64,000 bases of DNA, from NCBI GenBank assembly GCA_902760805.1, contig CACWHY010000002.1:144626-208625 (forward strand). Reading direction: 5' to 3'. The notes under the pieces were generated by a model, which saw nothing but the letters and a program-made list of their open reading frames with translations, was not told the DNA's origin and ran no database searches. Position numbers and translations under genes: made by a program. Source of the stretch: Ruminococcus flavefaciens (GTDB lineage: Bacteria; Bacillota; Clostridia; Oscillospirales; Ruminococcaceae). Positions 14,098 to 63,435 of the stretch are shown here, piece after piece. Every line of letters starts with the position of its first letter. The first letter of the stretch is position 1.

Positions 14098-15104
14098 GAC
14101 TGTTCAATAAAGACCGTATCCGGCTTAGCAGAGCCGTTCGTGAGGCGATAGATTCATATCCTGAGGGACTGTGCTTTTCCTCTGAAGATGGCAAGCCGAT
14201 CCTTGTGAACACTCAGATGAACAGACTGATCAGCCTTCTCACCGGCCATACGATCATAGAAACTGTTCACCTTTGGAACGAGCTTTCTGCCATCAGTGAG
14301 ACCTCCTCAGGCTGTAAACGTATTACCATGACCGAAAACGAGGCCTTCGATATCAATAAGCTGATCTTCCGATATCCTGACGGCAGGATCTGGCGATTTG
14401 AAAAAAGCGTCCTGCAAAGCGATGGGCAGATAACCATTCAGCTGAAAGCAGATGATATAACAGAGCTTACATCTGTCAGCCGGGAGCTTCTAAAGAACAA
14501 TCAGAAGCTGGCAGCTATGAACAAGAGGCAGAAGGCTCTTCTAAAAGACATCGTTGAGATAAACCGGGACAAGGAGTTCCTTGCGGCCAAAATGAGGATC
14601 CATGATGAGTTCGGAAGATGCCTTGTGGCAACAAAAAAAGCCCTCAGCGATCATTCAATAGCAGAGAGCATGGATATGCTGGTAAGCGGCTGGAGGTCAG
14701 CTATACAAGGAATGAGCGTGATCCCCCTCCAGCAAAAGGAGACTTCTCCCGAGGAGGAGCTGAGAAAAGTGGCAAGCATGATCGGATGCCGGATAAATAT
14801 GATCGGCGAACAGCCAAAGAAAAACCCCGCTCTCAACCTGCTGTATGCCGCCATTCGTGAGGGACTGACAAATGCTGTGCGTCACGCCGGAGCTGATGAG
14901 CTTACTGTAGAGCTCACTCACGGAAACGGTTTTTGCCATGCTGAGATCTCCAGCAACGGCAGCACCGAAGCGACTCAGATAACTGAGGGCGTTGGCCTGG
15001 GAAGTCTCCGGAAGAGCCTTGAACAGGAAGGTGCTGTCATGGAGATCAAATGCGAGAACGGTGTGCGAATGATCATTGATCTGCCGGAAGAATTAAGTAA
15101 TTAA
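14094..15104 (+). CDS. Soluble sensor histidine kinase (NarX/LiaS-type ATPase)
   Basis: 336 aa with no membrane segment. A PAS-like N-terminus (about 1-125) precedes a coiled linker, then the phosphoacceptor region AAKMRIHDEFGRCLV (His near 170), N-box IREGLTNAVRHAGADEL (about 260-276) and G-box GVGLGSLRKSL (about 300-310). This is the HisKA_3/HATPase pattern that pairs with LuxR-type regulators. It is translationally coupled to the 7TM protein, so the two presumably form one signalling complex, with this protein as the catalytic subunit. Confidence 0.85.
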   Translation: MRLFNKDRIRLSRAVREAIDSYPEGLCFSSEDGKPILVNTQMNRLISLLTGHTIIETVHLWNELSAISETSSGCKRITMTENEAFDINKLIFRYPDGRIWRFEKSVLQSDGQITIQLKADDITELTSVSRELLKNNQKLAAMNKRQKALLKDIVEINRDKEFLAAKMRIHDEFGRCLVATKKALSDHSIAESMDMLVSGWRSAIQGMSVIPLQQKETSPEEELRKVASMIGCRINMIGEQPKKNPALNLLYAAIREGLTNAVRHAGADELTVELTHGNGFCHAEISSNGSTEATQITEGVGLGSLRKSLEQEGAVMEIKCENGVRMIIDLPEELSN

Positions 15105-15133
15105 ATAAAATATATTCGATCCACACAAACAAG

Positions 15134-15164
15134 TAGTGTAAAATCGTTTCTAGTGTGGTATAAT
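15134..15164 (+). promoter_or_regulatory. Promoter of the response regulator with direct repeats
   Basis: -10 TATAAT at 15159-15164, preceded by a poor -35. Two direct TAGTGT repeats (15134-15139 and 15151-15156) are 17 bp apart; the first covers the -35 position. This would fit an activator-dependent, possibly autoregulated promoter. Confidence 0.45.
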
Positions 15165-15202
15165 TATATATGGAGTATTATCTTATTTTTTGGAGGGGTC
15201 GT

Positions 15203-15826
15203 ATGTATAATGTGCTAATCGTGGAGGACTCAAAGCTCTCACGAACTGCCATCGAACACCAGCTTTTGGCCGAAAGATGCTTCAACATCGTTACATCTAT
15301 CGAAAGTGCTGCCAACGCAGATATCCTCTGTATGGGCGGAAATATCGACCTTGTTCTCATGGACATCTGCACTGCTAACGATGAATCCGGTCTAAAGGCT
15401 GCCGGGCGAATAAAGAGCCATTATCCCGAAATAAAGCTGGTCATGATGACCTCGATGCCGGAGCACTCTTTCATTCAAAAGGCTCGTGAGAGCAGCTGCG
15501 ATAGCTTCTGGTATAAGGAGCACAGCTCTATGGATATTGCGGAGGTCTGCCGAAGGACTATGCTGGGCGAAAGTATTTGGCCGCCTGATTCTCCTCAGCT
15601 TTCGATCGGTGCCGCCAAAAGCTCTGACTTCACCGACAGAGAGCTTGAAGTGATCAGGGAGCTTGTGGGCGGACATACATACAGCGAGATCGCACAGACA
15701 CTGAAGGTCAGCGAAAACACGGTGAAATTCCACATAAAGAGCATCATGCAAAAGACCGGCTTCAAGAATACGCTCCAGCTGGTCGCAGATGTGGTGGAGA
15801 AAAAGTTCATCATGCCTAAATACTGA
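15203..15826 (+). CDS. LuxR/NarL-family response regulator
   Basis: 207 aa. An N-terminal receiver domain (MYNVLIVEDS with acidic pocket; phospho-acceptor Asp in IDLVLMDICTA, about residue 55) and a C-terminal LuxR helix-turn-helix (FTDRELEVIRELVGGHTYSEIAQTLKVSENTVKFHI). The start at 15203 is chosen because GGAGGGG lies 4-5 nt upstream; an in-frame ATG at 15170 has no ribosome site. It lies about 100 bp after its cognate kinase, with a separate promoter. It ends at a bidirectional terminator. Confidence 0.92.
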   Translation: MYNVLIVEDSKLSRTAIEHQLLAERCFNIVTSIESAANADILCMGGNIDLVLMDICTANDESGLKAAGRIKSHYPEIKLVMMTSMPEHSFIQKARESSCDSFWYKEHSSMDIAEVCRRTMLGESIWPPDSPQLSIGAAKSSDFTDRELEVIRELVGGHTYSEIAQTLKVSENTVKFHIKSIMQKTGFKNTLQLVADVVEKKFIMPKY

Positions 15827-16218: not shown

Positions 16219-16243
16219 AAAAGGTCTCCGAAGAGACCTTTTT
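16219..16243 (-). terminator. Terminator of the fumarate reductase operon
   Basis: AAGGTCTC-CGAA-GAGACCTT hairpin just after the stop of the AspT-like gene. The T tract on the minus side is short. Confidence 0.65.
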
Positions 16244-16245
16244 CA

Positions 16246-17487
16246 TTATTTGAATATTATCAGCAGCACCTGTGAGGTGATCACAACTGAGATAAGAGCT
16301 ACAGGGTAAGTTGCTGCATAGGCAGAAGCCACGTCCTCGGTGCCGGCGGTGCTGATGAGTGTTCCAAGGGCCGGTGTGGAGGTCATTCCGCCTGTTATCG
16401 AGCCAAGGTTGTTCAGCAGACTCAGCTTCAGAACGTACTTTGCAAAAAGGAATCCGATGATCATTGGGATCAGTGTCATGAGCATTCCGTAGAGGAAGAA
16501 TACCGGCTGGAAGTAGCGTGCGAAATTTGCTCCGCCGGAAACTCCAGCTCCGATAAGGAAGAACATCAGACCCAGCTCACGGAAAACCTTCAGAGTTGAG
16601 TCCTTGGGCATAACGCTAATCTTTCCAAAATGGCTAAAATGGCCGAAGATCAGGGACATCAGCAGACAGCCGCCTGTTGTGGAAAGTGAGAAGTGTCCCA
16701 CCTTGAATGAGCCGATGATGATGCCGAAAACTGCTGCAAGTGCAAAGGGCATGATACCGAAATCGTCCATCTCGATGAGATCCTTGGGAGCAGCCTTCTT
16801 CTTGCCGCTGCCGGAATTCACCAGAAGCTCACGCTCCTTCTTCATATCAGCCTTCATGATCTTAGGAATGATCTGAACAAAGAGTACAACGCCCAGAACT
16901 CCGAAGATATAGGCGATAGCGTAGCCTACTGAAACTGCGTCCTTATAGTCTCCAGCTGCGTCCTTTGCTGCGGAGAAGCCGGGTGTGCTGGTGAGGGCGC
17001 CGGAGAGAAGTCCGGTCATCAATGCGGAGAACTCGCCGCTCTCCCAATCTGAGAAGTTGCGTCCGACAAGGATACAGCCTGCACAGGTAAGTCCGCCGGA
17101 AAGGATTATGATCACTGCCAGCAAAACGTATGACTTGAAATTTTTCTTGAAATTGCCAAAGAAATTGGGGCCGGCAATAAATCCAACTGCCGTTACAAAG
17201 AGGATAAGACCAACGTTGTCAACGATCTTCAGAGCCTGATCCACGAAGGTGACTTCATCCACCACATTTCCAGCGGTGTCCTTGACGCCTACTACCAGCT
17301 GCTGAGTGAGCTGTTCGTGGAAAACATAGCCGAAGAAAAGCGCTACCAGGAAAACTCCCGCAGTGCCAAGAGAAATGCCCTTGATAGTTACTCTTCCCAG
17401 AATATAGCCGAGAGCTGCTATAGTCAGTACCGACAGCATCAGGAAGGCTACACTCTGAATGGAGAGGTATCCGTTAAAAAGTTCCAT
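16246..17487 (-). CDS. AspT/YidE-family carboxylate exchanger, candidate succinate exporter
   Basis: 413-aa membrane protein with about ten hydrophobic segments. It has two copies of the AspT-Al transporter repeat, each with an STPG/STPA motif (ALTSTPGFSAAKD near residue 165 and GGMTSTPALGTL near 380), separated by a charged central loop (about 215-245). Family knowledge: members include the aspartate:alanine exchanger AspT and the Corynebacterium succinate exporter SucE. As last gene of an operon holding fumarase and fumarate reductase, it most likely moves succinate or another C4-dicarboxylate. It is shorter than enteric YidE/YbjL, which carry central TrkA-C domains. Confidence 0.75.
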   Translation of the reverse strand: MELFNGYLSIQSVAFLMLSVLTIAALGYILGRVTIKGISLGTAGVFLVALFFGYVFHEQLTQQLVVGVKDTAGNVVDEVTFVDQALKIVDNVGLILFVTAVGFIAGPNFFGNFKKNFKSYVLLAVIIILSGGLTCAGCILVGRNFSDWESGEFSALMTGLLSGALTSTPGFSAAKDAAGDYKDAVSVGYAIAYIFGVLGVVLFVQIIPKIMKADMKKERELLVNSGSGKKKAAPKDLIEMDDFGIMPFALAAVFGIIIGSFKVGHFSLSTTGGCLLMSLIFGHFSHFGKISVMPKDSTLKVFRELGLMFFLIGAGVSGGANFARYFQPVFFLYGMLMTLIPMIIGFLFAKYVLKLSLLNNLGSITGGMTSTPALGTLISTAGTEDVASAYAATYPVALISVVITSQVLLIIFK

Positions 17488-17516
17488 ATACCTTTATCCT
17501 TTTCTTTACAAATTCA

Positions 17517-17537
17517 CGGGACGCACAGGGCGTCCCG
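17517..17537 (-). other. Stem-loop between frdA and the exporter gene
   Basis: CGGGACGC-5-GCGTCCCG, an 8-bp GC-rich stem without a T-run. It may stabilise the frdA 3' end or tune expression of the distal gene. Confidence 0.5.
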
Positions 17538-17546
17538 AAGAAATAT

Positions 17547-19151
17547 TTACTTAGATCTTCTTGCGTAGTGAGGAAGAAGCATGGGTGAGGCAGTTCCGCT
17601 TGCAGCACCGGACTCCTCAAGCTCCTTGTTGAAGCGCTCGATGTGATCCAGAGTCAGCTTCTCAGGAACAGCAGTATCCTTAGCCTTAGCTGCGGCGTTG
17701 ATACCAGCATTTCTGCCGAATACGATAACGTCCAGCAGAGAGTTGCCCATGAGACGATTGCGGCCGTGGATACCTCCGGCTACCTCACCGGCAGCGTACA
17801 GGTTTTCTACATCAGTGGAGCAGTCCTCAGAGATGTTCAGTCCGCCGTTCTGGTAGTGAAGTGTGGGGTAGACCAGGATAGGCTCCTTACGAATGTCGAT
17901 GCCGTACTTGCCGAACATTCTCATCATTGCAGGGATACGCTTCTCGATAGTTCCCTCGCCGTGCTTGTACTCGATCATGGGAGTGTCAAGCCAAACGGCC
18001 TTGCCCAGAGAGGTCTCAACTCCCTTGTTGCGCTCAGTACACTCACGAATGATGGAAGCGGCTGTTACGTCACGGGTCTCCAGGGGGTGCATGAACACCT
18101 CACCGTCGATGTTCACCAGCTTTGCGCCAAGTGAACGAACCTTCTCAGTAACCAGAGCACCAAAGATCTGCTCAGGATAGCCTGTGCCTGTGGGGTGATA
18201 CTGGAGAGTATCTGCGTAGAGCAGCCTTGCGCCGACTCTGTAGCCAAGGATAAGTCCGTCAGCAGTTGCTCCGTAATGGTTGGAAGTTGGGAAGCCCTGA
18301 TAGTGGAGGCGTCCAGCTCCGCCGGTAGCGATGATGACTGTCTTAGCTCTAGCCACCAGAAGCTCCTTAGTCTCCATATTCATGAGGACTGCACCGGCAG
18401 CCTTGCCGTTTTCATCAAGGATGATCTCGATAGCTGCTGTGAAGTCGATAACGGGAATGCCTCTGTTGATGACCTCGTCACGGAGAGTACGCATGATCTC
18501 AGCGCCGGAATAATCCTTTGCTGCGTGCATACGCTTTCTGGAGGTACCGCCGCCGTGGGTGGTGACCATTGTGCCGTCGGGCTCCTTATCGAACTCAACG
18601 CCCAGCTTGTTTAGCCACTGGATAGCCTCGGGAGCCTTTGTGACCAGCTTTCTTACCAGCTCAGGCTTTGCAGCGAAGTGTCCGCCGCCGAATGCGTCGA
18701 TATAGTGGATAGCAGGCGAATCGTTGGGCTTGTCAGCAGCCTGGATACCGCCCTCTGCCATCATTGTATTTGCGTCGCCGATACGCAGCTTTGTGACGAT
18801 CATTGCCTTGACTCCGGCCTCGTCAGCCTCGATAGCTGCGGAAGCTCCTGCTCCGCCGCCGCCGATGATCAGGACATCAGTATCGTAGTCAGGAGCGCTC
18901 AGGTCAACATCAGCTGCTGTGATACGGCTCTTTCCCTGTAACAGCTCTGCAAGCTGGGTCGGTACCTTGTCGCCCTTGTTCACTCCGGCAGACAGCACGG
19001 TGAACTCGTCCTGCTTGTAGTCTGGGTGGAAGGTGGCCAGAAGAGTATCCTTCTCCTCTGCGGTCATTCTTCTGGGCTCGAGAGCGGCGTTGGCCTCTCT
19101 CTTCTCAGCAACGATCTTTGCAAGCTCGTTCAGCTTATCTATCTTATACAT
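17547..19151 (-). CDS. frdA: Fumarate reductase flavoprotein subunit, soluble (TfrA/NadB-like)
   Basis: 534-aa flavoprotein of the succinate dehydrogenase/fumarate reductase family. An unusual ~85-residue N-terminal extension precedes the FAD-binding motif DVLIIGGGGAGASAA (about 92-106). The capping/active-site region shows GGTSRKRMHAA, LQYHPTG, and GGIHGRNRLMGNSLLD, which hold the substrate His/Arg positions. At the position where quinone-linked FrdA has its FAD-linking His (SHTVAAEGG), this protein reads ANTMMAEGG (Asn near 128), so FAD is probably bound non-covalently. No membrane anchor gene is present. Neighbours frdB, flx and hdr suggest electrons arrive from NADH in the cytosol. The reverse reaction or another fumarate-like substrate cannot be excluded. 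Confidence 0.85.
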   Translation of the reverse strand: MYKIDKLNELAKIVAEKREANAALEPRRMTAEEKDTLLATFHPDYKQDEFTVLSAGVNKGDKVPTQLAELLQGKSRITAADVDLSAPDYDTDVLIIGGGGAGASAAIEADEAGVKAMIVTKLRIGDANTMMAEGGIQAADKPNDSPAIHYIDAFGGGHFAAKPELVRKLVTKAPEAIQWLNKLGVEFDKEPDGTMVTTHGGGTSRKRMHAAKDYSGAEIMRTLRDEVINRGIPVIDFTAAIEIILDENGKAAGAVLMNMETKELLVARAKTVIIATGGAGRLHYQGFPTSNHYGATADGLILGYRVGARLLYADTLQYHPTGTGYPEQIFGALVTEKVRSLGAKLVNIDGEVFMHPLETRDVTAASIIRECTERNKGVETSLGKAVWLDTPMIEYKHGEGTIEKRIPAMMRMFGKYGIDIRKEPILVYPTLHYQNGGLNISEDCSTDVENLYAAGEVAGGIHGRNRLMGNSLLDVIVFGRNAGINAAAKAKDTAVPEKLTLDHIERFNKELEESGAASGTASPMLLPHYARRSK

Positions 19152-19163
19152 TTCACGCCCTCC

Positions 19164-19838
19164 TTACTGCTCAATGTCACGGTTGTTGTAGAGCTCTTTC
19201 ATCTCTTCGATAGGCTTCTGCATGAGGCTCTCGATGAGCTCGTTGAAAGCGCCCTCGTCGATCTCCTTGACACGGTCTGCAAGATGACCGCATTCGGGAG
19301 CGATGTACTTTCCGTTAAGACGGCGTGCCAGCATTGCTACCTGGGGATGAGAGATACCGGCAGGACAGCGGGATGAGCAGACTCCGCACATAACGCAGTC
19401 GAAGCTCTCCTCAGCGCACTTCTCATACTCGCCTCTCTGAGCGTATGCGATATACTGCATAACATTCAGCTCCTGAGTGCAGGCCTTGGTGCAGGCATTG
19501 CAGCCGATACAGCTGTAGATCTCGGGATAGAGCTGCATCATGATCTGCTCAGTGGGCTTGATCTTCTCGATATCATAGACCTTTTTCTCCAGGGGGAAGA
19601 AGGGCAGAGTTGCAACGTACATACCCTCCTGTACCTCGGTCTGACAGGCAAGACATCCGTGAAGAGCGGACTCTCCCTTGATCCTGTAGATAGTAGCACA
19701 GGCTCCGCAGAAGCCGTTTCTACAGCCGCAGCCTCTTACCAGCTCATAGCCGGCGTATTCCATAGCAGTCATTATCGTAAGACCTGCCGGCACCTGATAC
19801 TTCTTGCCGAACAGGTAAACATTAACCATATTTTCCAT
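19164..19838 (-). CDS. frdB: Fumarate reductase iron-sulfur subunit
   Basis: 224 aa. N-terminal plant-type [2Fe-2S] domain with CGCRNGFCGAC and a later Cys (about residues 36-62), then two [4Fe-4S]-type motifs CIGCNACTKAC (about 109-119) and CVMCGVCSSRC (about 148-158). It carries electrons to the flavin subunit 12 bp downstream. Unlike methanogen TfrB it has no C-terminal cysteine-rich CCG domain; that domain is present in this operon as separate HdrB. The subunit is soluble. Confidence 0.88.
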   Translation of the reverse strand: MENMVNVYLFGKKYQVPAGLTIMTAMEYAGYELVRGCGCRNGFCGACATIYRIKGESALHGCLACQTEVQEGMYVATLPFFPLEKKVYDIEKIKPTEQIMMQLYPEIYSCIGCNACTKACTQELNVMQYIAYAQRGEYEKCAEESFDCVMCGVCSSRCPAGISHPQVAMLARRLNGKYIAPECGHLADRVKEIDEGAFNELIESLMQKPIEEMKELYNNRDIEQ

Positions 19839-19854
19839 GCTTTATGCTCCTTTA

Positions 19855-20682
19855 TCAATATTCGTCCGGCAGTGCGTCAAGCTGGTCGAAACGGAAAACC
19901 GGACCGTCCTTGCAGACGTACTTGTTGCCGATATTGCATCTTCCGCACTTTCCCACGCCGCACTTCATGCGAAGCTCCATTGTGGTATAGACCTGAGTTT
20001 CGGTGAAGCCCAGCTCCTTCAGTCCGGCAAGAGTGAACTTGATCATGATAGGCGGTCCGCAGACCAGAACGGTCTTGTTTGTAGAGGGCTTGAGCTCCTT
20101 GACGTAGTTGGGAACAAAGCCAACGTGGCCGTCCCAGCCCTCCTGAGGATTATCTATGGTGAGGTCGACCTCAACGCCGGGATCAGCCATCCACTCGTCG
20201 ATGATCTCCTTATAGTCCACCAGGTCATCCTTTGAACGTGAGCCGTAGACGATCTGGACATCGCCATATTCGCCGCGCTTGTCACGGACGTAGTTTATAA
20301 CTGAGCGGAGAGGTGCAAGTCCGATACCGCCGGCGATGAAGAGCAGATCCTTGCCCTTCAGCTCTGTGTCAACGGGGAATGCGTTTCCGTACGGTCCACG
20401 GATAGTGATCTGCTGGCCCACTTCCATAGCATGGAGCCATTCAGTAAGGCATCCGCACTTTTTGATGCTGAATTCCATGAACTCCTTATTTGTAGGCGAG
20501 GAAGTGATTGAGAACATAGCCTCACCGACACCGGGGATAGAGAGCATGGCGCACTGGCCGGGCATATGCTCGAAGACCTTTCCGCCCTCCGGAGAAACGA
20601 CTCTAAAGGTCTTGACATCGGGGGTATCTATCCTGATGTCCGTAACTACTCCCACATGGGGGATCAATGTATCGTTGTTCAT
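19855..20682 (-). CDS. flxA: FAD/NAD(P)H-binding oxidoreductase, FlxA-like
   Basis: 275 aa of the ferredoxin-NADP reductase/PyrK type. An N-terminal FAD-binding barrel is followed by the nucleotide motif GGIGLAPLRSVINYV (about 115-130) and a C-terminal [2Fe-2S] motif CGVGKCGRC. Family knowledge: FlxA is the NADH-oxidising subunit of the FlxABCD-HdrABC complex. The start at 20682 (GGAGG 6-7 nt upstream) gives a TGATG overlap with flxB; a longer in-frame start lies inside flxB. Confidence 0.85.
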   Translation of the reverse strand: MNNDTLIPHVGVVTDIRIDTPDVKTFRVVSPEGGKVFEHMPGQCAMLSIPGVGEAMFSITSSPTNKEFMEFSIKKCGCLTEWLHAMEVGQQITIRGPYGNAFPVDTELKGKDLLFIAGGIGLAPLRSVINYVRDKRGEYGDVQIVYGSRSKDDLVDYKEIIDEWMADPGVEVDLTIDNPQEGWDGHVGFVPNYVKELKPSTNKTVLVCGPPIMIKFTLAGLKELGFTETQVYTTMELRMKCGVGKCGRCNIGNKYVCKDGPVFRFDQLDALPDEY

Positions 20683-21701
20683 CACTTTACCTCCAATGCT
20701 TTCATTACCTTGACGATGTTCATTGAGATCGGGCACTTGGACAGGCATCTTCCGCAGCCTACACAGCCGAATTCGCCGTTGTTATTGGCCGGGAAGTACA
20801 CCAGCTTGTGCATAAATCTCTGACGGAAGCGCTCAAGCTGAGATGTTCTGGGGTTGCCGTGTGCCATTTTTGTGAAATCTGAGTACATACAGGAGTCCCA
20901 GCAGCGGAAGCGCTTGATGCCGTTTCCGGTGTTGAAGTCCTTGATGTCGTAGCACTGACAGGTGGGGCAGACAAAGGTACAGGTGCCGCAGCCAAGACAG
21001 CTCTCGGACAGCTCTGCCCATTTCTCCGAATTGAAATGCTCATTCAGTGTGTCTCCGCCAAATGCTGCTGTAGAAAGGTTTGCAAGGGGAAGACGTGAGA
21101 GGATCTCCTTGGTCTTTGCCTTGACCTGATCCAGCTTAGCAGTGTCGCCCTCTTCAAGAAGGGATGAAATGCTGTCAATAAAGGCCTGACCCTTGTCGTT
21201 ATTAGCCTTGATGAAGAGGTCTTCGCCGTCGCTCCAGCAGGCAGCATCGCCCTCGGGCTCAGTTGCGTCGATGCCGAAAGTACCGCAGAAGCAGGTCTCG
21301 GCAGGACGTGAGCAGGCCATAGTCACAACAGTTCCGTGGTCACGTCTGTTCTTGTAGAAGCTGTCCACAGGCTCAGAAAGGAACACCTTATCAAGGATAG
21401 TGAAGCTCCTTGCGTCACAGGGACGAACTCCGAATATAACGAAATCCTCGTGCTCGCTGCGCTGGTCGATGACCTGGATATTCTTGCCCTCCATCTTGAA
21501 ATCAACGATGTTCTCGGTCTGGGGAAAGAAGAAATCCTTTGCGCTGCGGAGCGTGTTCAGCTTCTGGGTAAGAGCCTTTCCGGGCTCCCACTTAGTGAAC
21601 TCAGCAGCTCCGTCGGCACGGTCGCTGGGAATGTAAAGAGTCTGCTTCTCGGCGATAGCTGCGAAAAGCTCCTCCAGTCTTGAAAGTGAGATCTTCAGCA
21701 T
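20682..21701 (-). CDS. flxB: 4Fe-4S dicluster protein, FlxB-like (AsrA/HydG type)
   Basis: 339 aa. The N-terminal half resembles sulfhydrogenase/anaerobic sulfite reductase beta subunits (FVIFGVRPCDARSF; ACSRPAETCFCGTFG). The C-terminal part carries two cluster motifs, CLGCGTCTFVCPTC (about 237-250) and CVGCGRCLSKC (about 312-322). It relays electrons between FlxA and FlxC/D. It overlaps flxC by TAATG and flxA by TGATG, showing tight coupling. Confidence 0.82.
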   Translation of the reverse strand: MLKISLSRLEELFAAIAEKQTLYIPSDRADGAAEFTKWEPGKALTQKLNTLRSAKDFFFPQTENIVDFKMEGKNIQVIDQRSEHEDFVIFGVRPCDARSFTILDKVFLSEPVDSFYKNRRDHGTVVTMACSRPAETCFCGTFGIDATEPEGDAACWSDGEDLFIKANNDKGQAFIDSISSLLEEGDTAKLDQVKAKTKEILSRLPLANLSTAAFGGDTLNEHFNSEKWAELSESCLGCGTCTFVCPTCQCYDIKDFNTGNGIKRFRCWDSCMYSDFTKMAHGNPRTSQLERFRQRFMHKLVYFPANNNGEFGCVGCGRCLSKCPISMNIVKVMKALEVK

Positions 21702-22672
21702 TACTCAGCACCCCTTTCGTGAACTATGCTGGCCTCGCAGTCATCAGCGGTGTAGTCCGTAAGAGGAGCACGGGATGTGGTGTCTGCGCCGGCCTGATAC
21801 TCGCCGTAAAGGGAGTTGATGTCCTTGATGAACTTTCTGTTGAGCAAGTGGAGCGGGATGTTCTGAGGGCAAACTCTTGAGCACTCGCCGCAGTCTGTAC
21901 ATCTTCCGGCAACGTGGAATGCACGGATGATGTGGAACATATTCTCCTCAAAGCTGTCGGAGGCTGCCTTGTTCTCTACGCCGGAATTCGGGTTGTCGAA
22001 TACGCACTTTTCGCAAGTGCAGGCAGGACAGACGTTTCGGCAGGCATTGCAGCGGATACACTTAGAGAGCTGCTCTCTCCAGAAATCATATCTCTCCTGA
22101 GCAGTCATGTTCTCCAGCTTCTCCACCATGTCAAAGCGGTCAGAGTCCAGAACATCGCCGTCCTCGCCGATGAGCTCGTCGTAGGTAACGTGCTTCTTGC
22201 TCTTGCAGGAGGCGCACTTATCCAGGATAGCCTCGCTGAAGGGCATGGTCTCCTCTCCGTAGAGAGTATCTATTTTCAGTGTGTAATTATCATTCTTGAC
22301 GCTGAGGATACCGGTAATGCCCTTTGCTTTGATCTTCTCGATGTCCAGCTTGGGACCGCCGGGAATACCGATAACGTAGATGTTGTCACGGTCAACTCTG
22401 TGCTCCTTGGTGAGCTGATTGAGGCTGTAGGTGTCGCAGGGCTTGAGGAAAACAAGCACCTTGCCCTCCTTCTTGGACTCCTTCACCAGATACTTGGAAA
22501 CGTTTGCGCTGGTGAAATCGTCGAATACGAAGTCCTTGTCCAGCTCCTCGGCGCTCTCGAATACAGCAGGGGTGATGTCGTAGGCGAACTCTCCCCTCTT
22601 CCAGCCGATAACACGCTTTACGCTGCCGTCAGCAAGGAGCTCCTTGGCTCTTTTTATCATTGCTTCCTGCAT
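21701..22672 (-). CDS. flxC: 4Fe-4S protein with FrhB-like N-terminus, FlxC-like
   Basis: 323 aa. The N-terminal region is related to coenzyme F420 hydrogenase/dehydrogenase beta-type proteins (FLKPCDTYSL; CASCKSKKHVTY). The C-terminal part has two cluster motifs, CIRCNACRNVCPACTC (about 206-221) and CTDCGECSRVC (about 265-275). It overlaps flxD by 16 bp, with its own GGAGG inside the flxD end. It is an electron relay subunit by family context. Confidence 0.8.
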   Translation of the reverse strand: MQEAMIKRAKELLADGSVKRVIGWKRGEFAYDITPAVFESAEELDKDFVFDDFTSANVSKYLVKESKKEGKVLVFLKPCDTYSLNQLTKEHRVDRDNIYVIGIPGGPKLDIEKIKAKGITGILSVKNDNYTLKIDTLYGEETMPFSEAILDKCASCKSKKHVTYDELIGEDGDVLDSDRFDMVEKLENMTAQERYDFWREQLSKCIRCNACRNVCPACTCEKCVFDNPNSGVENKAASDSFEENMFHIIRAFHVAGRCTDCGECSRVCPQNIPLHLLNRKFIKDINSLYGEYQAGADTTSRAPLTDYTADDCEASIVHERGAE

Positions 22673-23103
22673 CTCAGATCCTCCAATCTACGGTTAGGAC
22701 CGAGCTTTCTTACGGCCTCGGTGAACTCGTTCATTGTTGCTGCGAATTTTGCGCCCTCAGCAGCGGATACCCACTCAACTCTTGTTCTGTCACGCTCGAT
22801 GCCCAGGAAATCCAGCATACTGAACAGCAGAGTCATTCTGCGGCGTGTGAAGTAGTTCCCTGAGGTGTAGTGGCAGTCTCCCGGGTGGCAGCCGCAGAGG
22901 ATAACGCCGTCTGCGCCACGCTGGAAGGCTCTGAGGATGAACATTGGGTTGACTCTGCATGAGCAGGGCACTCTGATTATCTTAACATTTGTGGGGTAGT
23001 TCAGTCGGTTGGTGCCTGACAGGTCTGCGCCGGCGTATGAGCACCAGTTGCAGCAGAAGGCAACGATCAGCGGCTGAAACTCTTTGTTTTCATTTACTTG
23101 CAT
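22657..23103 (-). CDS. flxD: MvhD-type iron-sulfur subunit, FlxD-like
   Basis: 148 aa. It has the MvhD/FlxD pattern IVAFCCNWCSYAGAD, VPCSCRVNP, and VILCGCHPGDCHY: conserved cysteines that bind a [2Fe-2S] cluster and pass electrons into HdrA. In methanogens the same subunit links hydrogenase to HdrABC. Here no hydrogenase gene is present and Flx proteins take its place. It overlaps hdrA by 10 bp. Confidence 0.9.
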   Translation of the reverse strand: MQVNENKEFQPLIVAFCCNWCSYAGADLSGTNRLNYPTNVKIIRVPCSCRVNPMFILRAFQRGADGVILCGCHPGDCHYTSGNYFTRRRMTLLFSMLDFLGIERDRTRVEWVSAAEGAKFAATMNEFTEAVRKLGPNRRLEDLRCRKQ

Positions 23104-25085
23104 ATTGCGTCTACCTCCGCCATGATCTGACTGTTAGAGAAGCCGGACAGATCCATTGCGCCAGAAGGACAGGCAACTGTACAAGCGCCGCAGCCCTGAC
23201 AAACAGCAGGGTTGACGCTGGCCACTCTTCTGATAGCAGTGGTGCGGTCGGGCATTCTGAACTCCTTATCGATGTATGTGATAGCTCCGTAGGGGCAAAC
23301 CTTCTCACAGGACGAACAGCCGTTGCACATAAGCTCGTTTGAGTGAGCAGTGCAGGGATTACAAGTGATGCTGTTCTTGCAGAGCAGGCCGATCGCCTTT
23401 GCAGCGGCGGCGCTTCCCTGAGCAACTGTCTCCGGGATGTCCTTGGGACCCTGGCAGGCGCCTGACAGGAAGATACCGGCAGTTGCGCTCTCTACAGGTC
23501 TCAGCTTGGGGTGAGCCTCTGTGAAGAAGTCGTTGGTGTCCATCTGTGTGGTGAGCATAGTCGCAAGAGGACGAGCAGTCTTGTCCGGCTCGATAGCTAC
23601 CGCAAGAACTACCATATCTGCGTCGATGTGGAGCTGCTCGTTGGACAGAAGATCGGAAGCCTGGACGCCGATCTTTCCGTCGGACTTGGGCGTTACTTTG
23701 CCCACCATTCCCTTTATGTAGTGAACGTTGTACTGCTCCACTGCACGGCGGTAGAACTCATCGAAGTTCTTTCCGGGAGTACGCACGTCGATGTAGAAAA
23801 CGTATACCTCGGTATCCGGATATTTTTCACGGATAAGCATTGCGTGCTTGGCTGTGTACATACAGCAGATCTTCGAGCAGTAAGGCTTGCCCTTGCTGTC
23901 ATCACATCTTGATCCTACGCACTGTACGAAAACGATGGTATGGGGGTGAGTTTTATCGGAAGGACGAAGGAGAGTTCCTCCGTTGGGGCCGGCTGCGTTC
24001 ATCAGACGCTCCAGCTCCAGGGATGTAACAACGTCAGGACACTGGTTGTAAGCGAACTCGTCGTACTTGTCCAGCTTGATCGGGTTGAATCCGGTCGCAA
24101 CAACGATAGCACCGTACTTCTCCTCGATGATCCTGTCCTGCTGCTTATAGTCGATAGCTCCCACTGAGCAGACCTTTGAGCAGACTCCGCACTTGCCGTT
24201 TTTCAGCATCATGCAGTAGTTGGGGTCGATAGTTGCCACCTTTGGAACAGCCTGTGCAAAGGGGATGTAGACAGCCGAGCGGTTATCCAGACCCATATTG
24301 AACTCGTTGGGCACCTTCTTCATTGGGCACTTCTCGGTACAAAGTCCGCAGCCGGTACACTTGGTCTCGTCAACGTATCTGGCCTTCTTCCGGATCTTTA
24401 CGGTGAAGTTTCCAACGAAGCCCTTCACGTCCTCTACCTCGCTGAATGAGTGGATAGTGATGTGCTCATTCTGGGAGGCCTCTACCATTTTTGGGGTAAG
24501 GATACAAGCGGCGCAGTCCAGTGTGGGGAAGGTCTTGTCGATCTGAGCCATTTTTCCGCCGATAGTAGGCTGCTTCTCAACGATATCTACGTCGAAGCCG
24601 GCCTCGGCGATGTCAAGAGCCGTCTGGATACCGGCAATTCCTCCGCCGATGACCAGAGCACGCTTAACAACAGGGCTCTCCATAGAAGTGAGAGGTGTGT
24701 TCAGGTGGACCTTAGCGATAGCGGCTTTTCCGAGGATAATAGCCTTTTCTGTGGCAGTAGCGATGTCCTTGTGGATCCAGGAGCACTGCTCACGGATATT
24801 GGCGATCTCCACCAGATAGGGATTAAGACCGGCAGAAGCTGCTGCCTTTCTGAAAGTATTCTCGTGCATTCTTGGCGAGCATGAGCAGATGACTACTCCG
24901 CCAAGATCATGCTCCTTGATAGCGTCCTTGACCAAATTCTGTCCGGACTCAGAGCACATATACTGATAGTCCTGGGAGATAACTACGCCGGGCTCATGAC
25001 CGAGAGCCTCTGCAACTGCCTTAACGTCAACAGTTGCGGCGATATTCGTTCCGCAGTGACAGACAAATACACCTATTCTCTGCAT
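23094..25085 (-). CDS. hdrA: Heterodisulfide reductase subunit A-like flavoprotein (bifurcating flavin)
   Basis: 663 aa. N-terminal domain (VFVCHCGTNIAATVD), FAD-binding Rossmann VIGGGIAGIQTAL (about 145-157), an inserted ferredoxin domain with CTGCGLCTEKC (about 243-253) and C..CGVCSKVC, and a C-terminal double-cluster ferredoxin (CNGCSSCEKVC near 590, CQGCGACTVAC near 635). Family knowledge: HdrA houses the flavin that bifurcates electrons between a low-potential ferredoxin and HdrB. Length and domain order match single HdrA, not the fused HdrA2 type. It is the central subunit of this operon. Confidence 0.92.
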   Translation of the reverse strand: MQRIGVFVCHCGTNIAATVDVKAVAEALGHEPGVVISQDYQYMCSESGQNLVKDAIKEHDLGGVVICSCSPRMHENTFRKAAASAGLNPYLVEIANIREQCSWIHKDIATATEKAIILGKAAIAKVHLNTPLTSMESPVVKRALVIGGGIAGIQTALDIAEAGFDVDIVEKQPTIGGKMAQIDKTFPTLDCAACILTPKMVEASQNEHITIHSFSEVEDVKGFVGNFTVKIRKKARYVDETKCTGCGLCTEKCPMKKVPNEFNMGLDNRSAVYIPFAQAVPKVATIDPNYCMMLKNGKCGVCSKVCSVGAIDYKQQDRIIEEKYGAIVVATGFNPIKLDKYDEFAYNQCPDVVTSLELERLMNAAGPNGGTLLRPSDKTHPHTIVFVQCVGSRCDDSKGKPYCSKICCMYTAKHAMLIREKYPDTEVYVFYIDVRTPGKNFDEFYRRAVEQYNVHYIKGMVGKVTPKSDGKIGVQASDLLSNEQLHIDADMVVLAVAIEPDKTARPLATMLTTQMDTNDFFTEAHPKLRPVESATAGIFLSGACQGPKDIPETVAQGSAAAAKAIGLLCKNSITCNPCTAHSNELMCNGCSSCEKVCPYGAITYIDKEFRMPDRTTAIRRVASVNPAVCQGCGACTVACPSGAMDLSGFSNSQIMAEVDAICK

Positions 25086-25097
25086 ATTATCTCCTCC

Positions 25098-25481
25098 TTA
25101 CTTAGCATATTTCCGCATTGCTGTAACGATGGCCTGCTGTGGGAGGTCCTCGTCAAGCAGCGAAGGGATCTGGTCGGGGCTGAGGTGGTTGCCGTCCTGC
25201 TGACGGATCGCTGCAAGGCGAACTGCCTCAACGACCTTGGCCGGCTGAACACCTCTGGGACATCTGTCCACGCAGGCAAAGCAGGTCAGGCACTTGTATA
25301 TGGACTCAGACTTCATGAGAGTCTCGATGTCGCCCTTTTCCACCATGTATACGAACTGGTGAGGGTGGTATTCCATCTCATCGTATGAGGGGCAGGTGCC
25401 GGAGCACTTTCCGCAGCGCATACATTTGAGCACGTTCACTCCGCTTGAACGGAGCACCTGCTCTTTAAGATTCTTATTCAT
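25098..25481 (-). CDS. hdrC: Heterodisulfide reductase subunit C-like
   Basis: 127 aa. Two [4Fe-4S] motifs CMRCGKCSGTCP (about 19-30) and CLTCFACVDRCP (about 63-74), the last followed by RGVQPAKVVEAVR, are typical of HdrC. It transfers electrons from HdrA to HdrB. It overlaps hdrB by 8 bp. Confidence 0.9.
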   Translation of the reverse strand: MNKNLKEQVLRSSGVNVLKCMRCGKCSGTCPSYDEMEYHPHQFVYMVEKGDIETLMKSESIYKCLTCFACVDRCPRGVQPAKVVEAVRLAAIRQQDGNHLSPDQIPSLLDEDLPQQAIVTAMRKYAK

Positions 25482-26271
25482 TATTGCCCTCCTTTAGGCC
25501 AAGAGCCTGGGCCAGGATCTCGGTAAAGTAGTACACAGGCAGGTCAGAGCCTGAATTCTTCTTGAGGTTGTAAAGGCACAGCGGACAGGCTGTGATGATC
25601 ATGTCGGCTCCCTGATCCTTAGCGGACTCCATAACAGCTCCGCTTCTCTTAGCAGCCTGAGACTTGTCCTCCAGGGTGATATAGCCGCCGCAGCATTCGT
25701 TTCGCTGAGCGTAGATCACAGGAGTTGCACCGATAGCACGAATGAAATCCTCCATGATAGTGGGGTTTTCCGGGTCGTCCATGGCAAGGGCGGCGCTGGG
25801 TCTCAGCAGGAGACAGCCGTAGTAAGCTGCGATCTTCACACCCTTCAGAGGAGCGACCACCTTCTCCTTCAGCTTATCAAAGCCCACCACATCTCTGAGC
25901 ATTTCCAGATAGTGATAAACTGTGGTCTCGCCGGTATAGGCCTCAGGGAGCTGGAGATAATTGTTCACCTTCGCAGCCATTTCCTCGTCACGGGAAATAT
26001 CGTAGTTGGTCTGCTTTATAACATTGTGACAGGCGGAACAGACTGTGATCAGCGCCCTTCCCTGCTCCTTGGCAGCGTTAAGGGTCCTGACCGCAGAGAG
26101 CTTAGTCGCTATCTCGTCCTTGGCTGTAGTATAGGCTCCTCCGCAGCACTGCCAGTCAGCAGGCTCCTCCAGAGCTATGCCAAGAGCCTCAGCGGAAGCT
26201 CTTGCATAGGCGTCCAGATCCTTAGCCTTGGTCCTAAGTGTGCAGCCGGGATAATATGTGAAAGTTTCCAT
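25474..26271 (-). CDS. hdrB: Heterodisulfide reductase subunit B-like (two CCG domains)
   Basis: 265 aa with two cysteine-rich CCG domains: YYPGC near residue 10 with CCGGAYTT and CSACHNVI, then CCGGYITLED and CPLCLYNLKK. In methanogens these bind unusual [4Fe-4S] clusters that cleave the CoM-S-S-CoB disulfide; in sulfate reducers the partner is thought to be DsrC. Neither partner is visible here, so the acceptor may be FrdB or an unknown disulfide. The start at 26271 has AAAGGA upstream; an in-frame extension to 26430 runs inside fumC and is low-complexity. Confidence 0.9.
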   Translation of the reverse strand: METFTYYPGCTLRTKAKDLDAYARASAEALGIALEEPADWQCCGGAYTTAKDEIATKLSAVRTLNAAKEQGRALITVCSACHNVIKQTNYDISRDEEMAAKVNNYLQLPEAYTGETTVYHYLEMLRDVVGFDKLKEKVVAPLKGVKIAAYYGCLLLRPSAALAMDDPENPTIMEDFIRAIGATPVIYAQRNECCGGYITLEDKSQAAKRSGAVMESAKDQGADMIITACPLCLYNLKKNSGSDLPVYYFTEILAQALGLKEGNNE

Positions 26272-26293
26272 TAGCTTGCAGTCCTTTCGTATG

Positions 26294-27670
26294 TTATACC
26301 ATTTCCTCCGGGTGGAAGACCTCTTCGAACTTCTCCTCGGTGAGGAAGCCAAGCTGTACGCAGGCCTCCTTGAGAGAGATGTTGTCCTTGAAAGCCTTCT
26401 TTGCGGTCTTAGCAGCGTTCTCATAGCCAATGTACGGGTTGAGAGCTGTTACCAGCATGAGGGAATTGTGGAGGTTGTGGTGCATTTTTTCCTTATTAGC
26501 CTTGATGCCTACAGCGCAATTCTTGTTGAACGAAAGGATCGACTCAGCAAGAAGTCTTGCGGACTGGAGGAAGTTGTAAGCGCAAACGGGCATGAACACG
26601 TTCAGCTCAAAATTGCCCTGTGAAGCAGCCATTCCAACGGCAACATCGTTGCCCATGACCTGTACAGCCACCATTGTCACCTGCTCGCACTGGGTGGGGT
26701 TTACCTTTCCGGGCATGATGGAAGAGCCGGGCTCGTTCTCGGGAATGAAGATCTCTCCCAGACCGTCACGGGGGCCGGAAGCCAGCCAGCGCACATCGTT
26801 GGCGATCTTCATCATGTCAGCAGCAAGTGCCTTCAAAGCTCCGTGGGCGAATACGATCTCATCCTTGGAGGTGAGTGAGTGGAACTTGTTGGGAGCGGTC
26901 ACGAAGCTCTTTCCGGTAAGCTCGCTGATAGCCTGTGCAGCCTTCTCAGCAAATCCAGCAGGAGCGTTAAGACCTGTACCAACGGCAGTTCCGCCAAGAG
27001 CGAGCTCCTTGAGCTCCTCGCAGGAGGAAAGGATCATCTTTCTATCCTTCTCAAGAGAAGCTCTCCAGCCGCTGATCTCCTGAGAGAACTTGATCGGAGT
27101 AGCGTCCTGGAGGTGAGTTCTTCCGCTCTTAACGATGCCCTCGTTCTCTTCTTCAAGGCGCTTGAAAGTAGCGATAAGGGTATCAACAGCCGGGATCACC
27201 TTGTCCTCCAGGGCGATCACAGCAGCAATGTGCATGGCTGTGGGGAATGTATCGTTTGAGGACTGGCTCATATTGATGTCGTCGTTGGGGTGGAGCAGCT
27301 TACTGCCGGCGATCTCATTTCCACGGTTAGCGATGACCTCGTTGGCATTCATGTTGGACTGAGTGCCGCTTCCGGTCTGCCAAACTACAAGAGGAAAATG
27401 GTCGTTGAGAGAGCCGCTGATCACCTCGTCGCAGGCCTGAGAGATAGCAGCGAGCTTCTCGTCGGTCATACGCTCAGGCTTGAGAGCGTGGTTAGCCTGT
27501 GCAGCAGCCTTTTTGAGGATACCGAAGGCGTGAGTGATCTCTCTCGGCATAGTCTCGATACCGACGCCGATGAGGAAATTTTCGTGGCTGCGCTCGGTCT
27601 GAGCGGCCCAATACTTATCGGCAGGCACCTTTACCTCGCCCATAGAGTCGTGTTCGATACGATAATCCAT
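26294..27670 (-). CDS. fumC: Class II fumarate hydratase
   Basis: Interconverts malate and fumarate, oxygen-stable type. 458 aa, typical for FumC, with TGSGTQSNMNANEV, the substrate-site SSNDTFPTAMHIA, and the fumarase/lyase signature GSSIMPGKVNPTQ. The start at 27670 is favoured over the ATG at 27679 because GGGAG lies 9 nt upstream. It is the first gene of the hdr-flx-frd operon (22 bp before hdrB), so it supplies fumarate to the reductase encoded further down. Confidence 0.96.
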   Translation of the reverse strand: MDYRIEHDSMGEVKVPADKYWAAQTERSHENFLIGVGIETMPREITHAFGILKKAAAQANHALKPERMTDEKLAAISQACDEVISGSLNDHFPLVVWQTGSGTQSNMNANEVIANRGNEIAGSKLLHPNDDINMSQSSNDTFPTAMHIAAVIALEDKVIPAVDTLIATFKRLEEENEGIVKSGRTHLQDATPIKFSQEISGWRASLEKDRKMILSSCEELKELALGGTAVGTGLNAPAGFAEKAAQAISELTGKSFVTAPNKFHSLTSKDEIVFAHGALKALAADMMKIANDVRWLASGPRDGLGEIFIPENEPGSSIMPGKVNPTQCEQVTMVAVQVMGNDVAVGMAASQGNFELNVFMPVCAYNFLQSARLLAESILSFNKNCAVGIKANKEKMHHNLHNSLMLVTALNPYIGYENAAKTAKKAFKDNISLKEACVQLGFLTEEKFEEVFHPEEMV

Positions 27671-27717
27671 TGAAAACATCTCCCGTTCTGAATCGGAACG
27701 CAGCCATACGTTCCTAC

Positions 27718-27762
27718 ATTATATTACAATATAAGTATATCAGCAAATCGCCATATTTTCAA
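27718..27762 (-). promoter_or_regulatory. Two overlapping promoters of the fumC-hdr-flx-frd operon
   Basis: P1: TTGCTG (27741-27746), 17 bp, TATAAT (27718-27723). P2: TTGAAA (27757-27762), 17 bp, TATACT (27734-27739). An imperfect dyad CCATATT..AATATGG (27751-27782) covers the P2 -35. Confidence 0.65.
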
Positions 27763-27792: not shown

Positions 27793-27810
27793 TTGATATA
27801 ATATTAACAA
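27793..27810. promoter_or_regulatory. Candidate Rex operator
   Basis: TTGATATAATATTAACAA matches the Rex consensus TTGTTAA-N4-TTAACAA at 12 of 14 defined positions, with one half-site perfect. It lies about 30 bp upstream of the P2 -35, and the rex gene itself is about 320 bp away. Confidence 0.55.
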
Positions 27811-28131: not shown

Positions 28132-28770
28132 TCACTTTTTTTCAATAGTGTTTAGGCCGTACGAAAGTGTCGTCAAACTGTCGCCAAGGTGTACGTTCTC
28201 CACCAAAACGCCACGGTAATTAAGCCTCAGATCATAATGGGTGAAGTTCCAGAAGGCCTTGATACCGCAGTTTATGAGCCGTTCGGTCTCCTTAGCCGCA
28301 TCGTCCTTGGGGATGCAAAGGATAGCCGCTACAGGCTTGTGTTCGTGGCAAAAGCTCTCGATAGAGCTGCTGCTCATTACCTCCAGCTCCCCCACCTTGC
28401 GGCCTACAAGCTCCGGATCAACATCAAAAATGCCGATCAGCTTGAAGCCACGGTTGTCGAAGTCGATGTGTGCTGCAAGAGCTCTTCCCAGATTTCCCGC
28501 ACCCAAAAGGATCATGGGCGTGTGCTTGTCCAGGCCTAAGATCTTGCCGATCTCGCCTCTGAGCTCTGTTACATTATAGCCGTAGCCCTGCTGGCCGAAC
28601 TCTCCAAAGCAGTTGAAGTCCTGGCGTATCTGTGAGGCTGTAAGGCCCATTTTCTCCGCAAGCTCCCTTGAAGAGATACGGACGTAGCCGTTAGCCTCAA
28701 GGTCCCCCAGAAATCTATAATACCGTGGCAATCGGCGTATGACTGAGTTGGATATAGTAGTTTTCGACAA
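28132..28770 (-). CDS. rex: Redox-sensing transcriptional repressor Rex
   Basis: 212 aa, full length. An N-terminal winged helix (SVIRRLPRYYRFLGDLEANGYVRISSRELAEKMGLTASQIRQDF segment, about 8-55) and a C-terminal NAD(H)-binding Rossmann fold with GAGNLGRALAAH (about 91-102). Rex senses the NADH/NAD+ ratio and represses fermentation and redox genes. The start codon is TTG at 28770 (GAGG 8 nt upstream). It lies 34 bp after icd on the same strand and just upstream of the Hdr/Flx/fumarate reductase operon, whose upstream region has a near-consensus Rex site. Confidence 0.95.
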   Translation of the reverse strand: MSKTTISNSVIRRLPRYYRFLGDLEANGYVRISSRELAEKMGLTASQIRQDFNCFGEFGQQGYGYNVTELRGEIGKILGLDKHTPMILLGAGNLGRALAAHIDFDNRGFKLIGIFDVDPELVGRKVGELEVMSSSSIESFCHEHKPVAAILCIPKDDAAKETERLINCGIKAFWNFTHYDLRLNYRGVLVENVHLGDSLTTLSYGLNTIEKK

Positions 28771-63429: not shown

Positions 63430-63435
63430 TTCTCT

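Follow-up and report, generated by a model that had tools for sequence, protein, structure and literature searches.

A Ruminococcus flavefaciens-like operon that may encode a soluble, bifurcating NADH:ferredoxin/fumarate reductase

The operon and its host

How might fumarate be reduced without quinones in a bacterium that places the genes of a fumarase, of the FlxABCD and HdrABC subunits, of a fumarate reductase, and of a dicarboxylate carrier in a single row? The question is raised by a locus in a Ruminococcus flavefaciens-like genome. The window analysed here, a stretch of 64,000 nucleotides from contig CACWHY010000002.1, carries 11 such genes on its minus strand in the order fumC-hdrBCA-flxDCBA-frdBA-aspT-like, from fumC (27679) to the AspT-like carrier (16246). 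Judged from gene content, gene order, and conserved residues, the best explanation of the operon is soluble NADH:ferredoxin/fumarate bifurcation, to which we assign a probability of roughly 0.65. The assembly comprises 2.73 Mb and is 96.5 per cent complete, which leaves each single absence reported below a slight risk of error. Its closest named records among 80 loci are R. flavefaciens and other Ruminococcus spp., chiefly from ruminant sources.

An earlier note on this DNA had described 11 co-directional genes with overlaps or short gaps. All 11 lie where that note had put them, and domain searches support their names (aa, amino acids; ORF, open reading frame; FAD, flavin adenine dinucleotide):

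26294..27679, minus strand: fumC, class II fumarase, 461 aa ORF, alternative start ATG 27670 possible; PF00206 (4.4e-109) and PF10415 (2.4e-24)
25474..26271, minus strand: hdrB, CCG-domain subunit, 265 aa, with 10 Cys for two noncubane clusters; PF02754
25098..25481, minus strand: hdrC, subunit with two [4Fe-4S] clusters, 127 aa; matches HdrC chains such as 5odc_C, SdhB matches being weaker
23094..25085, minus strand: hdrA, FAD subunit, 663 aa; 5odc_A (E 5.6e-210)
22657..23103, minus strand: flxD, MvhD/FlpD-like linker; PF02662 (2e-55) and MvhD chains
21701..22672, minus strand: flxC, Fe-S subunit with Fer4 domains
20682..21701, minus strand: flxB, Fe-S subunit like AsrA/sulfhydrogenase beta; PF17179 (6.6e-31), NCBIfam matches below cut-off
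19855..20682, minus strand: flxA, FAD/NAD(P)-binding subunit; PF00175, PF00970, and PF10418
19164..19838, minus strand: frdB, with 12 conserved Cys for one [2Fe-2S] and two [4Fe-4S] clusters
17547..19151, minus strand: frdA, flavoprotein of fumarate reductase, extended at the N-terminus by about 88 aa; PF00890 (2.5e-72)
16246..17487, minus strand: AspT/SucE-family carrier, probable succinate exporter; PF06826 (4e-57)

Eight of the ten junctions overlap or leave at most 16 bp. Overlaps join hdrB to hdrC (8 bp), hdrA to flxD (10 bp), flxD to flxC (16 bp), flxC to flxB (1 bp), and flxB to flxA (1 bp, with the flxA start assigned to 20682, the listed ORF beginning at 20748). Gaps separate fumC from hdrB (22 bp), hdrC from hdrA (12 bp), flxA from frdB (16 bp), frdB from frdA (12 bp), and frdA from the carrier gene (59 bp). 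The start of HdrB is the ATG at 26271 and not the TTG at 26430 with which its listed ORF begins. In the carrier, PF06826 (the Asp-Al_Ex membrane domain) is matched in two stretches, as expected of AAEx (AspT/SucE) carriers, a family that takes in the succinate exporter SucE1.

Conservation of the gene order in the class

The series hdrB-hdrC-hdrA-flxD-flxC-flxB-flxA-frdB-frdA is complete and collinear in 63 of the 80 named-record loci, which are the best 80 of 572 relatives by score and are weighted to close kin; the other 17 are interrupted by contig or locus ends, and none is rearranged. A separate, even draw of 391 genomes from the class, which offers the fairer test of conservation, yielded 53 loci, with 40 complete, 12 cut, and one rearranged (L236, where frdBA stands ahead of hdrBCA). 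Where a locus has room for the flanking genes, fumC immediately precedes hdrB 58 times out of 60 in the named set and 20 out of 36 in the class set, and an AspT-like carrier immediately follows frdA 56 times out of 70 and 34 out of 52, respectively. The synteny survey for which the earlier note had called finds the order from hdrB to frdA conserved in loci of the class; the group that it had named for the survey, Oscillospiraceae, is correct if taken broadly, the closest named kin being Ruminococcus.

The FrdA subfamily of this operon was found in 54 of the 391 class genomes (the window's genome included) and HdrA, searched for independently, in 58. Both occur together in 53 (Fisher P-value = 1.7e-58, uncorrected for kinship), on the same contig and 1.3–4.2 kb apart in 46 of them and on separate contigs in seven. 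The sole genome with FrdA only, G461, has flxC-flxB-flxA ahead of frdB at a contig end (L239). Five genomes have HdrA only (G418, G426 [62 per cent complete], G430, G455, and G539), and in G430, G455, and G539 the matches cover only part of HdrA. Synteny and the co-occurrence of FrdA with HdrA rule out a chance neighbourhood. As a separate observation, one contig titled uncultured Treponema (L067) bears a Clostridia-type operon, reflecting either a binning error or a transfer.

Conserved residues and identity of the subunits

The full FlxABCD-HdrABC subunit set is present: FlxA, FlxB/C, FlxD (FlpD), HdrA, HdrB, and HdrC. HdrA aligns over its full length with the HdrA of structure 5ODC (5odc_A), and its four-Cys cluster (C389, C403, C407, and C408) and K413 are kept in 123 of 123 sequences. 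K413 is aligned with Lys409 of 5odc_A, a residue that the accessible text of the structural report describes as hydrogen-bonded to N5 of the FAD (PMC6405883). All ten CCG cysteines for the two noncubane clusters of HdrB are present in 120 of 121 aligned sequences, and all five of its structural matches are HdrB chains; its top NCBIfam models are the SdhE anchor and HdrB, each under the cut-off. HdrC conserves its eight cysteines in 124 of 124 sequences.

Judged by alignment, FrdA has the residues expected of a fumarate reductase/succinate dehydrogenase flavoprotein. H319, E336, R339, R360, H432, and R466 are kept in 173 of 173 rows and T335 in 172; these positions, with roles in dicarboxylate binding and the proton shuttle, are aligned with SdhA and NadB chains, and we take them to be the counterparts of H232, E245, R248, R287, H355, and R390 of Escherichia coli FrdA. 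Since two of the 173 rows belong to another family (L190 and L237), the subfamily proper numbers 171. In all 171, the position of the covalent-FAD histidine is occupied by Asn and an N-terminal extension of 86–98 residues is present; the C-terminus of FrdA ends shortly past the FAD domain. The subfamily is distinct: its full-length matches score at least 575 bits and the next at most 261, and the only score in between (492.6) comes from half of a gene that is split across two contigs (G579). In FrdB, the 12 cluster cysteines are conserved in 166 of 166 aligned rows. Eight of them, in all 166, are arranged for two [4Fe-4S] clusters, a type judged from the cysteines, and not for the [3Fe-4S] cluster expected of fumarate reductases and succinate dehydrogenases (FRD/SDH). 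This second half of FrdB is akin to RnfC-type and other ferredoxin diclusters.

Several known identities were rejected for these proteins. FrdA lacks the glutamate (position 121 of NadB) that is diagnostic of L-aspartate oxidase, the site being H199 in 167 of 173 rows and otherwise F, P, or K; another relative on contig C24, 37 per cent identical, likewise counts against FrdA being NadB. A quinol-linked enzyme (FrdABCD/SdhABCD) is ruled out, as there is no match to Sdh_cyt or UbiA and no covalent-FAD histidine. Membership in TfrAB fails at the cut-offs (353.9 against 718 bits for TfrA, and 35.7 against 385 for FrdB on TfrB), and FrdB has no CCG domain, unlike what is expected of TfrB. The 8-methylmenaquinol:fumarate reductase SdhABE is excluded by the score of HdrB on the SdhE anchor (144.4 against 500 bits) and, again, by the missing UbiA match.

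The rest of the genome was searched for a small number of relevant proteins. A UbiA-type prenyltransferase is required for quinones; none was matched in this genome, whereas all 14 control genomes were positive. Sdh_cyt likewise gave no match in the genome, with 7 of 14 controls positive. The genome has a single HdrA, a second match (E 4e-4) being a short stretch within the RnfC gene, and both RnfC and an [FeFe] hydrogenase score above their cut-offs.

Proposed electron flow

We propose that the operon encodes a quinone-free fumarate-reducing system. FumC would convert malate to fumarate, and FlxA would accept the hydride of NADH, with FlxB, FlxC, and FlxD relaying electrons to the FAD of HdrA. 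There, each electron pair would be split, one electron passing to ferredoxin and the other to HdrC and HdrB; from HdrB, which with HdrC would form the docking site of FrdBA, electrons would continue through FrdB to the FAD of FrdA, where fumarate would be reduced. The net reaction, in its presumed direction and stoichiometry, would be fumarate + 2 NADH + Fd(ox) -> succinate + 2 NAD+ + Fd(2-). Succinate would probably leave through the AspT/SucE-like carrier, if that is indeed its substrate, and reduced ferredoxin may go to Rnf, forming an ion gradient, or to hydrogenase. Bifurcation had been suggested in the earlier note, and gene content, order, and residues make it the best-supported reading, although the path of the electrons is itself deduced from these data.

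That the fumarate/succinate couple is positive enough to drive ferredoxin reduction, another claim of that note, holds in calculation. Ferredoxin potentials can be as low as -500 mV. With this value and those in the accessible text of two reports (fumarate/succinate +33 mV and NAD -320 mV [PMC5861303]; ferredoxin -450 mV [PMC10734219]), the transfer of two electrons to fumarate yields 68 kJ and that of two electrons to ferredoxin costs 25 to 35 kJ, leaving a net of about -43 to -33 kJ/mol.

FrdBA with other partners outside the class

In a draw of 398 genomes from the phylum, 42 passed a threshold of E 1e-70 for FrdA. Three of these (G158, G369, and G327) carry another family (40–41 per cent identity), and 39 loci were studied from the 38 of the 39 remaining genomes that are not the window's own. 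For every alternative partner type, one or two loci were scanned and the remainder assigned by clustering. In 11 of the 39 loci, FrdBA is adjoined by a double-HdrA protein together with MvhD and an Fe-S protein, with HdrCBA preceding in nine and beyond view in two (L169 and L170). HdrCB adjoins FrdBA without HdrA in four loci, HdrBCA lies downstream of FrdBA in four, and one has the Flx-Hdr form with hdrC leading. The remaining loci have a fumarase and/or malic enzyme (seven, L168 being labelled on the weaker evidence of a common downstream gene alone), pyruvate carboxylase (three), NrfH- or FMN-domain genes (three), a ferredoxin-cytochrome b561 protein (three), or other or cut surroundings (three). 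Genome G276, whose own locus L177 is cut, was assigned to the HdrCB group through its kinship with G252. A strict dependence of FrdBA on Hdr across the phylum is ruled out by loci and genomes without Hdr.

On a FrdA tree of 138 of the 171 rows, the window, and three outgroups (L245, of 415 aa, and near-copies were excluded), partner labels cluster, with 11 changes for ten groups compared to 38.5 in shuffles. Class members of the Flx-Hdr type form a group, inside which the pyruvate-carboxylase rows and L166 sit on long branches, and L185 is placed away from that group. From this placement of the partner groups, FrdBA has exchanged partners more than once.

Two kinds of these loci deserve separate description. 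Where complete, the second HdrA-like protein of the double-HdrA loci (L157–L160, L162–L164, L169, L170, L172, and L184) has 1053–1489 aa. With MvhD and an Fe-S protein, it stands before FrdBA, mostly after HdrCBA, as a donor module unfamiliar to us; relatives of TRAP carriers and malic enzyme lie farther upstream in several of these loci. In L152, L154, and L155 (G380, G071, and G296), FrdBA follows pyruvate carboxylase, and these genomes have no HdrA match.

HdrB as a candidate contact with FrdB

HdrA is present yet unlinked to FrdBA in 18 of these phylum genomes, of which 17 were examined (G075 excepted): 14 have a complete hdr-flx cluster elsewhere, two have a cut one, and one has no hdrB hit. 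Because Flx-Hdr is widespread, such unlinked clusters on their own lend weak support. Their HdrB proteins differ in likeness to that of the window: they are 46–50 per cent identical to it in the fumarase/malic-enzyme group (six genomes) and 33–39 per cent identical in the genomes where FrdBA adjoins HdrCB, cytochrome b, or membrane genes (ten 'other-donor' genomes), and FrdBA-linked HdrB from outside the class reaches 41–48 per cent. The corresponding fall is smaller for HdrA, from 56–60 to 52–54 per cent (n = 6 other-donor genomes), and for FlxA, from 54–61 to 50–55 per cent (n = 9); HdrA of most FrdBA-associated groups is 54–60 per cent, FrdBA-associated FlxA 48–61 per cent, and FrdBA-associated HdrB outside the class 41–50 per cent identical to the window's. 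At the linked locus L185, identities are 54 (HdrA), 48 (FlxA), and 45 (HdrB) per cent.

On the HdrB tree (58 of 96 rows, the Flx-Hdr-Frd rows having been randomly thinned), other-donor HdrB proteins occupy two long branches, with stems of 0.87 (nine rows) and 0.92 (L261), and a single clade for them is rejected (approximately unbiased [AU] test; p-AU 1e-5). Their branches are shorter on the HdrA tree, where five other-donor rows are united by a stem of 0.05 with weak support, followed by 0.38–0.46 to two subgroups, and L261 has 0.33. The HdrA set holds six of the ten other-donor genomes, a length filter having dropped L258, L259, L262, and L263. In these four (G252, G276, G033, and G080), HdrA of the unlinked cluster contains one in-frame TGA, possibly encoding selenocysteine.

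Since the shift seen in genomes with another donor beside FrdBA is larger for HdrB than for HdrA or FlxA, the comparison suggests that HdrB is the subunit that meets FrdB. The four phylum loci with HdrCB beside FrdBA and without HdrA count in favour of such a contact.

Weighing the explanations

A number of observations weigh against bifurcation to fumarate in this form, or against its wider importance. Nineteen of the 39 phylum loci have no adjoining Hdr gene (L177 is cut at once, and L156 and L168 extend for only 1–2 kb), and an HdrA match is absent from 4 of 28 phylum genomes tested (G380, G071, G296, and G067). HdrA likeness does not appear simply to track FrdBA, given identities of 33–53 per cent in the double-HdrA group, and the HdrB comparison was made post hoc, after the identities had been seen, on few lineages. 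Among possible entry enzymes to C4 acids, ATP-type phosphoenolpyruvate carboxykinase (PEPCK) was the one looked for in the genome, and it has no match. A literature search that covered no preprints and few subscription papers retrieved no enzyme assay of a bifurcating fumarate reductase. The accessible text of one rumen study does not list succinate among the products of R. flavefaciens and reports that high fumarate reductase transcription was not observed in ruminococci (PMC8092306), the latter making a major contribution to rumen metabolism less likely.

The near-complete retention of the CCG cysteines in HdrB also makes thiol/disulfide chemistry possible. Flx-Hdr could reduce a disulfide at the noncubane clusters of HdrB, with bifurcation kept, and FrdAB, or FrdAB with HdrBC, would then be a separate thiol:fumarate reductase that consumes the resulting thiol, in the manner of TfrAB in methanogens. 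TfrA is the top NCBIfam model for FrdA, albeit below its cut-off, pieces of TfrB match FrdB, HdrC, and HdrB, and the HdrCB-FrdBA operons without HdrA resemble a split Tfr. However, DsrC, reportedly proposed as the partner of bacterial Flx-Hdr, has no match in the genome (only 1 of 14 controls was positive) and was rejected as the partner of HdrB, and to our knowledge coenzymes M and B are not expected in this organism. We regard a thiol shuttle as unlikely. Slightly less credit still goes to a non-bifurcating NADH:fumarate reduction through Flx-Hdr-Frd, in which HdrA would be a mere relay and all electrons would reach fumarate. Such a route is thermodynamically easy, and the literature search found no test of bifurcation; yet HdrABC would scarcely be required for plain relaying, the four-Cys cluster and FAD-N5 lysine of HdrA are invariant (123 of 123), and RnfC and hydrogenase offer outlets for reduced ferredoxin. 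Least probable is a reverse or bidirectional use, with succinate oxidised at the expense of NAD+ and reduced ferredoxin (confurcation). FrdA/SdhA enzymes and HdrABC complexes can work in both directions, but R. flavefaciens produces succinate, and fumC, the AspT/SucE-like carrier, and the Rex-like site described below suit fermentative succinate formation.

Beyond bifurcation in the Ruminococcus operon, a broader interpretation seems to us evenly balanced between true and false. It holds that FrdBA is a plug-in soluble reductase that sits on varied donors in Bacillota, namely Flx-Hdr, HdrCB alone, HdrCBA with double HdrA and MvhD, ferredoxin-cytochrome b561, and NrfH/FMN-domain proteins. In Clostridia, HdrB would have turned from a disulfide reductase into a relay, giving a single bifurcating enzyme that, in Ruminococcus of the rumen and gut, replaces fumarate respiration with quinones.

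Promoter, terminator, and Rex site

The flanks of the operon contain the following features:

27734..27762, minus strand: promoter-like site with an extended -10, 10 of 12 matches
16219..16242, minus strand: terminator-like stem from the terminator scan
27793..27810, minus strand: Rex-operator-like palindrome TTGTTAATATTATATCAA, with 2 mismatches to the consensus
28132..28770, minus strand: rex-like repressor gene upstream of the operon, a possible regulator; PF06971 and PF02629

The earlier note had assigned the operon one promoter and one terminator. Matching sites do flank it, but scans of the whole region run close to shuffle level, with 9 promoter-like sites compared to 8.6 in shuffles (no excess) and 13 terminator-like sites compared to 10.3 (standard deviation 3.4; barely above), so that the two sites of the operon draw their support from position. 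Bases 131 to 114 upstream of fumC form the Rex-like palindrome. A site with at most two mismatches occurs in 14 of 61 upstream regions of at least 250 bases (the window's included; the regions are mutually non-independent), compared to 0.5 in Markov shuffles. Across the whole window, the pattern with at most three mismatches shows no excess (3 compared to 1.3, with 17 of 100 shuffles attaining 3). The operon is probably controlled by Rex, which would release it at high NADH.

Other features of the window

Upstream, beyond rex, lies an isocitrate-dehydrogenase-like ORF, named by sequence alone, and downstream of the terminator-like stem is a small membrane-protein-like ORF. Three plus-strand genes at 12523-15826 are convergent with the operon: one encodes a membrane protein whose similarity to seven-transmembrane (7TM) histidine-kinase sensors falls below the Pfam cut-off, and the others encode a 336-aa protein without a Pfam match and a LuxR-type response regulator. 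A 363-aa ORF at 11123-12214 (minus strand) extends over tandem repeats (11459-11578), whose translation on this strand is rich in His and Asp, and looks metal-binding or zinc-transport-like. Rfam places a 6S RNA at 53343-53527 (plus strand) and a T-box leader at 63229-63434 (minus strand).

Comparison with known systems

If bifurcation to fumarate is correct, rumen cellulose-degrading ruminococci and many gut Clostridia would conserve energy from fumarate without quinones, and succinate formation would reduce ferredoxin to supply Rnf or hydrogen. This would bear on ATP yield, on engineered succinate producers, and on the split between succinate (a propionate precursor) and hydrogen (a methane precursor). 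It would also mean that an HdrABC complex has, as its high-potential acceptor, a cluster of a partner protein instead of a disulfide.

Parts of the proposed system have precedents. FlxABCD-HdrABC of Desulfovibrio vulgaris (Ramos 2015) is made of the same seven genes; it reportedly lacks FrdAB, and the disulfide acceptor proposed for it is said to be DsrC. TfrAB of Methanobacterium (Heim 1998) is reported to be a soluble, flavin-containing fumarate reductase that combines Fe-S modules with modules like HdrB and HdrC. In TfrAB, these modules are fused in TfrB and the enzyme is thiol-fed, whereas here HdrB and HdrC are encoded individually, next to HdrA and Flx. For relays resembling HdrB, SdhE of the SdhABE enzymes offers a distant precedent.

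The idea of a bifurcating fumarate reductase is not new: it was already proposed for Pseudoclostridium thermosuccinogenes in PMC7282089, which cites a 2019 preprint (10.20944/preprints201912.0288.v1). The earlier note knew of no described complex of exactly this composition. As far as its accessible text goes, PMC7282089 describes a 'succinate operon' from CDQ83_RS03365 to RS03315 with a fumarate hydratase (RS03365), Flx-Hdr (RS03360-30), a fumarate reductase (RS03325-20), and a putative transporter (RS03315). Compared by this description, the gene set, its order by locus tags, and the proposed ferredoxin coupling are alike; provided that the tags step by five, their ranges correspond to 1 + 7 + 2 + 1 genes. 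None of the 80 named-record loci comes from a record under that species name. The same text reports the operon to be about 4-fold up under CO2 limitation (non-significantly for some subunits) and calculates with a fumarate reductase coupled to ferredoxin reduction (PMC7282089). The Ruminococcus operon differs in being adjoined by rex and in coming from a rumen and gut group. In tubeworm symbionts and Thioflavicoccus, the accessible text of PMC6315080 describes flxABCD-hdrABC with tfrAB and korABCD and suggests a complex of FlxABCD-HdrABC-TfrAB with 2-oxoglutarate:ferredoxin oxidoreductase (OGOR). Flx-Hdr genes are there, as here, interspersed with fumarate reductase, but in the setting of a reverse tricarboxylic acid cycle, with TfrAB homologues and OGOR (PMC6315080). 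Relative to these systems, what is new here is the breadth across gut Clostridia, a new host group, several natural variants, the signal of a stronger shift in HdrB than in HdrA or FlxA where another donor serves FrdBA, and, as predicted from gene neighbourhoods, a distinct FrdBA subfamily that is paired with other donors outside the class.

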